A stretch of DNA of 64,000 bases from Jannaschia seosinensis (lineage in GTDB: Bacteria > Pseudomonadota > Alphaproteobacteria > Rhodobacterales > Rhodobacteraceae), in the NCBI RefSeq assembly GCF_001408515.1, contig NZ_CYPR01000185.1:1-64000 (forward strand). Direction: 5' to 3'. Positions 9,019-44,111 of the stretch are shown here, piece by piece (position 1 is the first letter of the stretch; each line of letters starts with the position of its first letter). Under the pieces are notes generated by a model that was not told where the DNA came from, did no database searches, and saw nothing but the letters and a program-made list of their open reading frames with translations. The translations under genes were made by a program, and so were the position numbers.

Positions 9019-11183
9019 GTCGCGCGCATCACGCGGACGGGGGAGGGGCCGGAGGCGGGCCAGAGCGCGTCCCCACCCGCGGGCAGCGTCGTCCCGCGGG
9101 TCGAGATGTGCAGGACGAACGGCCCGCGTGCCGCGCGAAGCTCTCCCTCGGGCGCATCAAGGGCGCGCCACTCAGTCGTGAAGGCGTCGGGGTTATCGCG
9201 GCGCAGTTGCAGGAGCGTGCGGGTCAGGTCGAACTTCGTGCGATCGAAAGGGGAGCGCACCTCCGCCCCTTCGTTCAGCTTTGCCAGCGCATCCCAATCC
9301 ACGGCTGCCCGGTTGTCCGGGTCGGTCAGGCGGAAACTGCCGATCTCGGTCCCCTGATAGATGTCGGGAATGCCCGGCACGAAGAACTTGAGCGCGCATT
9401 GCGCCAGCGCGAGGTTTTCGGCCCGCGTGGCAAGGCCCGACAGGTCATCGGCGGGGGCGAAGCGGTCGGCGACGCTGCGGGCCGCGTCGAGGACCGGGCC
9501 TTCGAACTCCTCGACCACATCGGTCCAGAACGTGTCCCGCTTGGCCTCGCGCATGGCCTTTTCCAGATGTGCGGGCAGCCGCTCCGCCAGATCGCCGTCG
9601 GGTGCGGCGGCGAAGGCCGATTGTGCCAGATACCAACGCCACGGCTGCGGCAGGTCGGGCACGCGGGACAGAAGCGCCTCGGCGGCGTCGGGATCGTGCG
9701 AGATGGCGGCGATCCGCATGCGCGCATCCTCCGACCGCTTGGTGTCGTGGCTGGAGGTCAGGGTCAGCGCGTTCGGCATCAGGGCCGCGCGGCGCTCCAT
9801 CCAGGTGTGGAAGGCGTCGGCATCCATCGCAGGTTCGTCCGGCTCCGCGCCCACCTCGTTGGCCGACAGAAGCGGCGTCCAGCGGTAGAAGGCGGTGTCT
9901 TCCTGCGCCTTGGCAATGGCCGCGCCGGTCAATTGTTGCAGACGCAGGCGCAGTTCGGAATTGGCCCTATCCGTCAGAAGGTCCGTCAGGTCGCCGAGCG
10001 CGGCGGCGGCGGGCCTGTCCCTTGCCGCGCGTGCGGCGGTGTCGCGGATCAGTTCGGCATCCGCCTCGGGCACGGCATCGGCCGTGGCATAGGTGCGGTA
10101 GCGCGGAAAGGCGCGGACATAGGCGAGAATCGCCTGTCGCCATGACGCCCGCCCCCATTCGAGATGCGCCCCCGCCCGGACGGCGAGGTTGGTCAGGCGC
10201 TCTACCTCGGCCTGAAGTTCGGTCGTCACGATCTGCGTCTTGGCGTCGTCGCGGACGTCGTGGAAGGCGGGCCAGCCTTCGGCCATGCGCGCGGCGCCGT
10301 CCCCATCGGTCAGCACGCGGGCGATCGAGCGGGCCGCGACGTAGCCGGTCGTGCCCTCGACCGGCCAATCGGGCAGGGGCTCGTCGCCGGTCAGGATCTT
10401 TTCGACCCAGATCGGCGTGCCGGGCAGGCGGTCGCGCAGACGGCCGAGATACTCGTCCGGGTCGGCCAGACCGTCCACATGATCCACGCGCAACCCGTCG
10501 GCCACACCGCTTTCGATCAGGTCGAAGGTCAGGCGGTGGACGTCCTCGAACACGTTCGGGTCCTCGATGCGCAAGCCGATCAGGCCGGTTACGGTGAAGA
10601 ACCTGCGGTGGTCGATGGCGGCGGACTCGGTGCGCCAATGGGTCAGGCGCCACGGCTGCGCATTGTGGATCGCGGTGAGGTCGCCCTCGGGCTGCGTCGC
10701 CAGCGGGATGCGCAGCCCGGGGGCGACCATCTCGTCGCCCTCAACCTCGATGTCACCCGCCGCGGCAAGCTCCGCGAAAGGGGCGCCGAGCCAGGGCAGG
10801 CGCAGGCGGCCATTGGACCAGTTGATATCGAAATGATCGGCGAAGCGGCTGTCGCGGCCGTGGCGGAGCACGTCCGAGAGCCACGGATTGTGGACGGTGA
10901 ACGCCATGTGGTTCGGCACGATGTCGAGGATCAGGCCCAGCCCCGCCTCGTGCAGCCGATCCGCCAGTGCCTCCAGCCCCGCACGGCCGCCGAGATCCGG
11001 TTCAACCTCGTTCGGATCGGTCACGTCGTAGCCGTGGGTCGAGCCGGGCGCGGCGGTGAAGACCGGCGCGAGGTAGAGATGCGAGACGCCGAGGTCGCGC
11101 CAATAGGGCACGAGGTCGGCGGCGCGGGCGAAATCCATCCCCTCGCGCAGTTGCAGGCGGTAGGTGGCGGTCGGCAGCTTCAT
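9015..11183 (-). CDS. treY: Maltooligosyl trehalose synthase
   Basis: TreY is a GH13 enzyme that isomerises the reducing-end alpha-1,4 bond of a maltooligosaccharide to an alpha,alpha-1,1 bond, giving maltooligosyltrehalose for TreZ. The protein has 722 residues. It opens with TATYRLQL, carries the Y-APVF..GSTHGYD segment near residue 40-55, the catalytic GLRVDHVDGL motif, the WVEKIL acid/base segment and the SSHDTKRSED region, all diagnostic of TreY. It is the last gene of the seven-gene glucan operon; its ATG overlaps the malQ stop as ATGA. Together with treZ it closes a route from alpha-glucan back to trehalose. Confidence 0.96.
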   Translation of the reverse strand: MKLPTATYRLQLREGMDFARAADLVPYWRDLGVSHLYLAPVFTAAPGSTHGYDVTDPNEVEPDLGGRAGLEALADRLHEAGLGLILDIVPNHMAFTVHNPWLSDVLRHGRDSRFADHFDINWSNGRLRLPWLGAPFAELAAAGDIEVEGDEMVAPGLRIPLATQPEGDLTAIHNAQPWRLTHWRTESAAIDHRRFFTVTGLIGLRIEDPNVFEDVHRLTFDLIESGVADGLRVDHVDGLADPDEYLGRLRDRLPGTPIWVEKILTGDEPLPDWPVEGTTGYVAARSIARVLTDGDGAARMAEGWPAFHDVRDDAKTQIVTTELQAEVERLTNLAVRAGAHLEWGRASWRQAILAYVRAFPRYRTYATADAVPEADAELIRDTAARAARDRPAAAALGDLTDLLTDRANSELRLRLQQLTGAAIAKAQEDTAFYRWTPLLSANEVGAEPDEPAMDADAFHTWMERRAALMPNALTLTSSHDTKRSEDARMRIAAISHDPDAAEALLSRVPDLPQPWRWYLAQSAFAAAPDGDLAERLPAHLEKAMREAKRDTFWTDVVEEFEGPVLDAARSVADRFAPADDLSGLATRAENLALAQCALKFFVPGIPDIYQGTEIGSFRLTDPDNRAAVDWDALAKLNEGAEVRSPFDRTKFDLTRTLLQLRRDNPDAFTTEWRALDAPEGELRAARGPFVLHISTRGTTLPAGGDALWPASGPSPVRVMRAT

Positions 11184-42729: not shown

Positions 42730-43597
42730 TCAGGCGCGACGGCTGCCCCAGCGGCGGAAACCGGCGAATGCCGCAAGCCCGCCCATCAACAGGGGAAGAC
42801 CGGCCGGCAGCGGCGTCGGGACGATTTCGACATCGTATTCAATGTAGTACCCGGTCATGCTGTCGAATTTCATACCGGCCAAGGTAAGGCTGTCTGGCCA
42901 ATCTGTTGCAAAACCCGCCCGATTATTAGATAAGCCCTGAGACCAATTGTACATATCTGTAGCCTCAATGTTGAAATCTGTCGCGGAAGCGGTGCCAAAG
43001 ACCCAAGTGTTATCAAAAACTCCGTTCCAGTCGCCGGGAGCCAGCAGAGTTTGGCCACAGAACCACAGAAAATTGCTTAAGTTTCCGCCGCAACCGACCG
43101 GCGCGCCAACACTAAGTTCAATCCGGCCACGAAGGGCGCCTGTCTCGAACGGAGCCTCTATGGGCGCATCTAGCAAGCGTGAAAGCTCGATTAGATTTCG
43201 TGTCGGCAACGCACTGGAATCGCAGCGCAGATCTCCTGATCCTCCCCAACAATCGCCTTCCAGGGATACACCAGCTGGAACGGAAGCATACGGGGCTAGA
43301 GAAAAATATGTCGCATCATACATGCGCAACTTTGTTGGCGTGAGCTTTAGCAGGCTGCTGAAAAAGTCTTGAGTGCCCATCTTCGACTCCTACGACGACA
43401 CATCATATCGGTTTTGGAAGCGCCTGCGCACAATATCTTGTCATCCCTTCGAGACGGCTGATGCAGTTCGTCGAGGTCCATTTCCTTTTTCAGCAGCCTG
43501 TTAGATCAAACTCGAATGTCTGCGTCGAGGCCGAGGCTGCCGTGGCGACCCAGAGCGATGCAATGAAATAAAAAAACCATGTCGAAAAACGTCTCAT
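42730..43597 (-). pseudogene. VPLPA-CTERM sorting-signal protein gene, split by a 150-bp insertion
   Basis: The intact protein would be exported and processed by an exosortase-like system through a C-terminal sorting signal. The 3' part ends in PTPLPAGLPLLMGGLAAFAG then FRRWGSRR, a VPLPA-CTERM signal: motif, membrane helix and basic tail. The 5' part begins at ATG 43597 with a signal peptide (RRFSTWFFYFIASLWVATA then ASA) and reads 35 codons into a stop at 43490 inside the inserted element. Removing 43351-43500 plus one TTAG copy joins QTFEFDL to KLTPTKL in frame, giving 237 residues. The 3' part can also be read from an ATG at 43380 inside the element, but without a signal peptide. The passenger domain is unrecognised. 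Confidence 0.88.
43351..43500. mobile_element. Miniature inverted-repeat element (MITE), 150 bp, with TTAG target duplication
   Basis: The left end is CAGGCTGCTGAAAAAG (43351-43366); its exact reverse complement, 16 of 16 bases, forms the right end (43485-43500). Direct repeats TTAG flank it at 43347-43350 and 43501-43504. The 118-bp interior encodes no transposase, so the element would need one supplied in trans. Four-base YTAR-type duplications are known for the IS5 group, and ends of this type also recall IS1182-like elements; the parent family is not settled. It inserted into a VPLPA-CTERM gene. On the minus strand it offers AGGAG followed 6 bases later by ATG (43380), in frame with the host gene. 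Confidence 0.87.
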
Positions 43598-44111
43598 TGG
43601 TCGTACCTTGCTGTAAGATTTAAAAGAAGTGGCTCTTAATGGCGCGGTGCTCCTTGATTGCGCCGATCATCCGCGCCGCTTTCGCAGCGCCGCAGATCTC
43701 GAAGGTGGTGGCATGCCCGAAGGCGCTGCCGACCGGATTAGTTGTTGGCTGAACGGTTCGCGCTTCTGCGGCTTGCGACGCGTGTACGCCCCCCTCCGCG
43801 GTTCGGCCTGCCGTCTGGAAGATTTAGGGCAGAGGGCGGAGGCTGACATTACGGTCGTAACGTCGAAACGCGCACCGCACCGCGGCCGCTGAGGACTGAC
43901 TGATATTCCCGTCACGTCGGCATGGCCGAACCGGATGCTTCGGCGGAGGCGCAGCGACACTGCAAATGGTGGCGGCCGCATCGCCAGTGATCATCCGCGC
44001 AGGAATCCAAGAATCCGCTCTGCATAGGTTGCTCCGCTGATCTGCTGCCGTTGGACAGGCAAAGCATATCCGCAACCGCACCCCGGTTCCTACCAGTTTG
44101 TTAATGGATTA
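43598..44111. other. 514-bp region without a recognisable gene
   Basis: Short open frames on both strands (up to about 100 codons) show no family motif, no good ribosome site and the composition of random GC-rich DNA. The region may be the upstream control sequence of the VPLPA-CTERM gene, or gene remains. AT-rich patches lie at its ends, near 43608-43640 and 44096-44120. Confidence 0.5.

Follow-up and report, generated by a model that had tools for sequence, protein, structure and literature searches.

A 150-bp MITE with IS5-group ends in Jannaschia seosinensis, most likely mobilized in trans by an ISRssp10-like transposase

A 150-bp element of Jannaschia seosinensis, located in a window of 64,000 nt (the whole stretch of DNA that was analyzed), is with high confidence a MITE with IS5-group ends, most likely mobilized in trans by an ISRssp10-like IS5-group transposase, whose identity we infer. 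Judged against the open-access literature searched, it is a new MITE family of a well-known kind. Like bacterial IS MITEs in general, it is short, lacks a transposase gene, carries inverted IS ends, is bordered by a target duplication and occurs in multiple near-identical copies; it differs from the general class in that its end-plus-core sequence was found in its own genome only, among the genomes searched. A search of the open-access literature found no description of the 150-bp element, and the sole match there to a 14-base stretch of its end was a Borrelia paper.

Results

Structure of the element

The MITE occupies positions 43351 to 43500 (+ strand) and has no transposase gene. Its terminal inverted repeats, read from the sequence, are both CAGGCTGCTGAAAAAG and match at 16/16 positions in inverted orientation (left, 43351 to 43366, + strand; right, 43485 to 43500, - strand). 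They enclose a 118-bp core (43367 to 43484, + strand), and a 4-bp TTAG target duplication stands on either side (43347 to 43350 and 43501 to 43504). The sequence thus bears out the initial annotation, which had described a 150-bp element with perfect 16-bp inverted ends and TTAG on both sides; the interval that it gave, 43347 to 43504, comprises the element plus both duplications. Under a simple independence estimate for the 64-kb window at its GC content, a perfect inverted repeat of 16 bp whose arms lie at most 500 bp apart is expected 0.05 times by chance, and 0.0003 times when a matching 4-bp flank is included. A chance origin of the inverted repeat is excluded because the genome holds 13 full copies.

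MITEs range in size from about 100 to 500 bp, and the 150 bp with 16/16 ends observed here fall within that description. At this length the element is too short to encode its own transposase, as had been proposed from the sequence; its longest stop-free frame amounts to 49 codons on the minus strand and spans the whole element. Consensus inspection revealed no outward promoter in the MITE. Furthermore, a comparison of positions 43250 to 43650 with Rfam returned no family above the gathering score, and the one sub-threshold match lay outside the element.

Copies and target sites

The J. seosinensis genome is a draft of 3.83 Mb in 253 contigs. A search of the full genome for other copies, suggested by the initial annotation, recovered 13 full copies, nine of which, the window copy among them, are identical; the rest differ at one or two positions. 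This near-identity suggests a recent spread. In addition, two broken pieces were found on contigs C209 (element positions 1-114) and C97 (element positions 110-150). On C97 (G000:C97, L061:335-375), the right end of the MITE stands immediately 3' of the apparent end of a transposase gene, which we take to be IS66-type. We considered whether a single copy, broken in two by an IS66-type element, could have given rise to both pieces. Elements of this type are expected to produce an 8-bp duplication and the junctions had none; therefore, C209 and C97 were counted as two broken pieces. The 8-bp value for IS66-type elements also appears in a table of PMC3281130.

Two pairs of copies (C191a/C152 and C191b/C230) have both flanks in common, on contigs that overlap or are duplicated, so the 13 full copies represent 11 distinct sites. 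Identical 4-bp flanks border 12 of the 13 full copies, and these flanks are YTAR in 11 of the 12. Counted by site (n=11), the flanks are TTAG at seven, TTAA, CTAA and GATG at one each, and unmatched at the last. YTAR is the duplication motif given for IS5 in a portion of PMC10359306, and the MITE conforms to this IS5-group target use at 9/11 distinct sites, where YTAR is duplicated. The two exceptions are the C27 copy, flanked by TGAA and CTAA with no matching duplication, and the C112 copy (G000:C112, L065:766-915), which is full and has GATG, not YTAR, on either side.

On C131, an ORF with a strong match to the NO_synthase oxygenase domain (G000:C131, L064:3461-4738; Pfam PF02898, 451.8 bits) abuts a MITE copy, and its stop codon lies within the TTAA duplication of the MITE. 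Bacterial nitric oxide synthases are uncommon in the group to which J. seosinensis belongs.

Empty sites demonstrate insertion

The initial annotation had held that the inverted ends and the flanking TTAG showed insertion by a transposase directly. The duplication by itself is insufficient for that claim; the proof comes instead from the MITE copy on C42, which sits at the 3' terminus of an ORF for a transposase (Pfam DDE_Tnp_1) whose plasmid relatives are annotated as IS1634 family. When the C42 flanks were joined, IS1634-type copies on C20, C4 and C191 aligned with them gap-free over the junction, at 98.4, 97.7 and 96.4%, respectively. All three carry a single, uninterrupted TTAG where C42 reads TTAG-MITE-TTAG. 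A more distant IS1634-type copy on C227 (72%) is unoccupied too, with TCAG at the site. Because of these empty sites in paralogous IS1634-type copies, insertion of the 150-bp element with a 4-bp duplication, and with it its transposition, is established directly. Plasmid IS1634 matches extend across the C42 insertion junction as well, as judged from the span of the match only.

The insertion altered the C42 transposase, which ends in ...DALTGC followed by a MITE-derived stop, the unoccupied form ending in ...DALSLTKPT. At this locus the transposase ORF spans L067:8260-9975 and the MITE 9965-10114, and the last residues are replaced by MITE codons and a stop.

An empty TTAG site, which had been named as a means of verification, was precise in the three paralogous copies. 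For the window copy, the 19 congeners yielded no such site; in them the split gene described below has no clear ortholog and gave two weak partial matches. For the C196 copy, empty-site searches of the J. seosinensis genome and of phages gave matches that start 18-22 bases past the site, where the downstream gene begins or shortly ahead of its start.

The window copy splits a gene

When the element and one TTAG were removed from the window, the flanks joined into one continuous reading frame for a 237-aa protein. As it stands, the gene is split into a 5' fragment (43490 to 43597, - strand), terminated after 35 codons, when its frame reaches a TGA in the MITE (43490-43492), and a 3' fragment (42730 to 43380, - strand), listed as a 216-aa ORF. 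The joined protein has a start that resembles a signal peptide by eye and a weak VPLPA-CTERM-like end (TIGR03370, 22.9 bits, cut-off 25.35), and it matched no Pfam family. These features suggest that the gene probably encodes a secreted protein, possibly of the VPLPA-CTERM type.

The putative 216-aa ORF opens at an ATG inside the MITE with AGGAG six bases upstream, and its product would lack the N-terminal stretch of the split gene. We considered the internal AGGAG-ATG as a general portable start. In a comparison of 11 sites, from which an exact search missed the C196 copy, its end differing by a base, the 216-aa host frame was seen at the window copy only, and nine others gave frames of 17-105 aa. 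The portable-start reading was rejected, and annotation of the interrupted window gene, with its VPLPA-CTERM-like end, from the internal ATG is unwarranted without evidence.

A resident IS5-family element carries the same end

The 15-bp end, with at most one mismatch, occurs at 33 places in the J. seosinensis genome: 26 are ends of full MITE copies, C209 and C97 account for one each, and the remaining five, on C9, C13, C54, C89 and C221, all belong to one IS. This resident IS (C9:15093-16466) measures 1374 bp and carries an intact 399-aa transposase gene. The transposase scored 264.5 bits against NCBIfam NF033581 (IS5 family; cut-off 140), contains the Pfam domains DUF772 and DDE_Tnp_1, and scored 203.5 against the IS1182 profile, under the cut-off of 270. 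The C13 copy is frameshifted and those on C54, C221 and C89 are partial; degraded relatives were found on C85 (71%) and C239 (76% over 121 bp).

The left end of the resident IS is identical to the MITE end at 16/16 bases (17 bp against the right arm of the MITE), and its right end matches at 14/16. Hence, whereas the two MITE ends are identical to each other, those of the resident IS are not. The two full-length copies, on C9 and C13, have a common left flank; their YTAR flanks differ between the two sides, TTAA on the left and CTAA on the right, a pattern that recombination or assembly might explain. The same genome thus provides a candidate autonomous partner, an IS5-family IS whose left end is identical and whose transposase gene is intact. 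A full-length IS with the same ends and a YTAR-type duplication had been named in the initial annotation as something to look for; this held for the left end and for the flanks of most relatives, and fell short at the right end.

Matches spanning most of the resident IS were found on plasmids, at 83.7-88.9% identity in the best nine records, and included ISRssp10 of Roseovarius plasmids. This element (IS5 family, IS5 group) is 84% identical to the resident IS over its full length and has ends, CAGGCTGCTGAARAAG, like those of the MITE; likewise, its copy in Roseovarius sp. THAF9 has TTAA on both sides. Unlike the MITE, which does not code for a transposase and whose core shows no detectable relation to it, ISRssp10 is 1364 bp long and transposase-coding. 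Flanks were matched YTAR in 7 of the 11 plasmid ISs measured, ISRssp10 among them; of the other four, one had two different YTAR flanks, two had YTAR on one side and one had it on neither. Of the seven relatives in other genomes with an assigned right end, four (L093, L100, L104 and L107) had matched YTAR flanks, a count that leaves out four loci yielding no right end; two others had two different YTAR flanks and one had a doubtful right end. The section of a Paracoccus survey (PMC3281130) that covers three IS5-group members gives them lengths of 1282-1485 bp and ends of 16-18 bp; two have a 4-bp duplication and one a duplication of 6 bp.

The core is unlike the resident IS

Neither the 118-bp core nor either of the 59-bp subterminal arms gave a significant local alignment with the resident IS or four related ISs, the lowest p values being 0.066 among 20 arm comparisons and 0.255 among five whole-core comparisons. 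The ends alone are in common; therefore, an origin of the MITE by simple internal deletion of the resident IS is unsupported. We also looked for a parent IS with the subterminal sequence of the MITE. The pattern GGCYGCTGAARAAGTCTTGA occurred in nine stretches of genome contigs and in none of the viral contigs, and in none of the nine did both MITE arms face each other within 3 kb. A related short element is likely at one of them only, L087 of Haematobacter missouriensis.

Distribution and look-alike elements

Among 19 congeners, the MITE had no match apart from a 31-bp partial one in a single genome. In 394 genomes of the family (393 genera, own included; two candidates scored per genome), three matched, namely J. 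seosinensis itself and two over short stretches, and plasmids and phages gave no match. A gapped pattern in which the two ends stand 132-162 bp from each other retrieved 2 of the 394 genomes, J. seosinensis and H. missouriensis (G340). The latter, whose species is taken from 2693 bp identical to a named contig, holds three MITE-like elements (L090, L091 and L092) with nearly the same ends, other cores and no matching 4-bp flanks. In IMG/VR, the end pair was found in two contigs. The first, IMGVR_UViG_2711768077_000003, is C196 of J. seosinensis (equal in length at 65190, and 100% identical over the 11191 bp compared); the second, 3300001336_000609 (L122:673-821), has an element of 149 bp whose ends agree with those of the MITE and whose core differs, flanked on each side by TTAA. 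At total lengths of 102-131, 163-192 and 193-222, IMG/VR contained no such elements.

The five MITE-like elements from these three sources measure 149, 150, 154, 154 and 161 bp. Their cores have no obvious mutual relation (raw local scores of 13-26, the highest between two H. missouriensis elements). It is conceivable, albeit improbable, that ISRssp10-type IS5 elements repeatedly yield MITEs in which 16-bp ends surround foreign cores and the length stays nearly constant, at about 150 bp; the set behind this reading is n=5, of which 3/5 have no matching duplication, and the family-wide search spanned 132-162 bp only. If true, the substrate would be defined by its ends and a length constraint and not by descent from an IS.

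The C196 copy (G000:C196, L070:5650-5799) lies a short distance upstream of a gene for a minor tail protein. Since this contig has tail genes and is listed as viral by IMG/VR, a phage may carry the MITE. Relatives of the C196 tail gene region on C205 and C19 (L148 and L149; 95% and 86%) start 18 bases past the MITE site, so that several related prophages may be present.

Discussion

We propose that the resident IS5-family transposase, or a close relative, would bind the common 16-bp ends in trans and would then insert the MITE at YTAR sites. The window copy inserted into a TTAG within the gene for the probably secreted protein, thereby splitting it. Several observations count against this explanation: the core is unlike the IS, the MITE has two identical ends and the IS does not, the C9 and C13 IS copies have unmatched flanks, as do 4 of the 11 plasmid ISs, and the C27 and C112 copies of the MITE depart from the YTAR pattern.

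A different IS5-group or IS1182-like transposase, lost or missing from the draft, could have mobilized the MITE, with the resident IS sharing the end only. We consider this rather unlikely, although it overlaps with the preferred explanation, which allows for a close relative, and the two probabilities are not exclusive. It would fit with the core and subterminal sequences unmatched in the resident IS, the degraded relatives on C85 and C239, a genome in 253 contigs, and a Muribaculaceae contig with a similar end, GAGGCTGCTGAAAAAG, facing GAGGCCGCTGAAAAAG about 2 kb off. However, the left end of the resident IS is identical over 16 bp, most measured relatives have YTAR duplications, and all 33 end places in the genome fall in MITE copies, MITE pieces or the resident IS.

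That the element is a repeat with a regulatory or structural role (e.g. REP-like, or a transcribed hairpin), dispersed in the genome and kept for its function with no transposon involved, has very little probability. A single strand of the MITE does fold more stably than shuffled sequences (z -3.8 and -4.2), a result for the whole element to which the perfect ends must contribute much. Nevertheless, the precise empty site with its 4-bp duplication, the insertion within a gene and the near-identity of the copies all contradict such a repeat, as do the 19 congeners with nothing beyond the 31-bp partial match and the Rfam comparison. Finally, that the 150 bp form part of a longer conserved gene, which the initial annotation had named as grounds for refutation, and have coincidental TTAG flanks is next to impossible: a minus-strand frame is open across the element and the internal ATG opens the 216-aa ORF, but the 11 distinct flanks, the empty site and the split gene that reads through once the element is removed contradict it.

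Mobilization in trans by an ISRssp10-like IS5-group transposase thus remains the preferred reading. The element records an apparently recent MITE burst in an apparent member of a Rhodobacterales family, with H. missouriensis in the same family group, and is otherwise one further case of a well-known class. The organism allows a direct test of trans-mobilization of an IS5-group MITE, since its genome offers both an internal empty-site control and a candidate transposase of its own.
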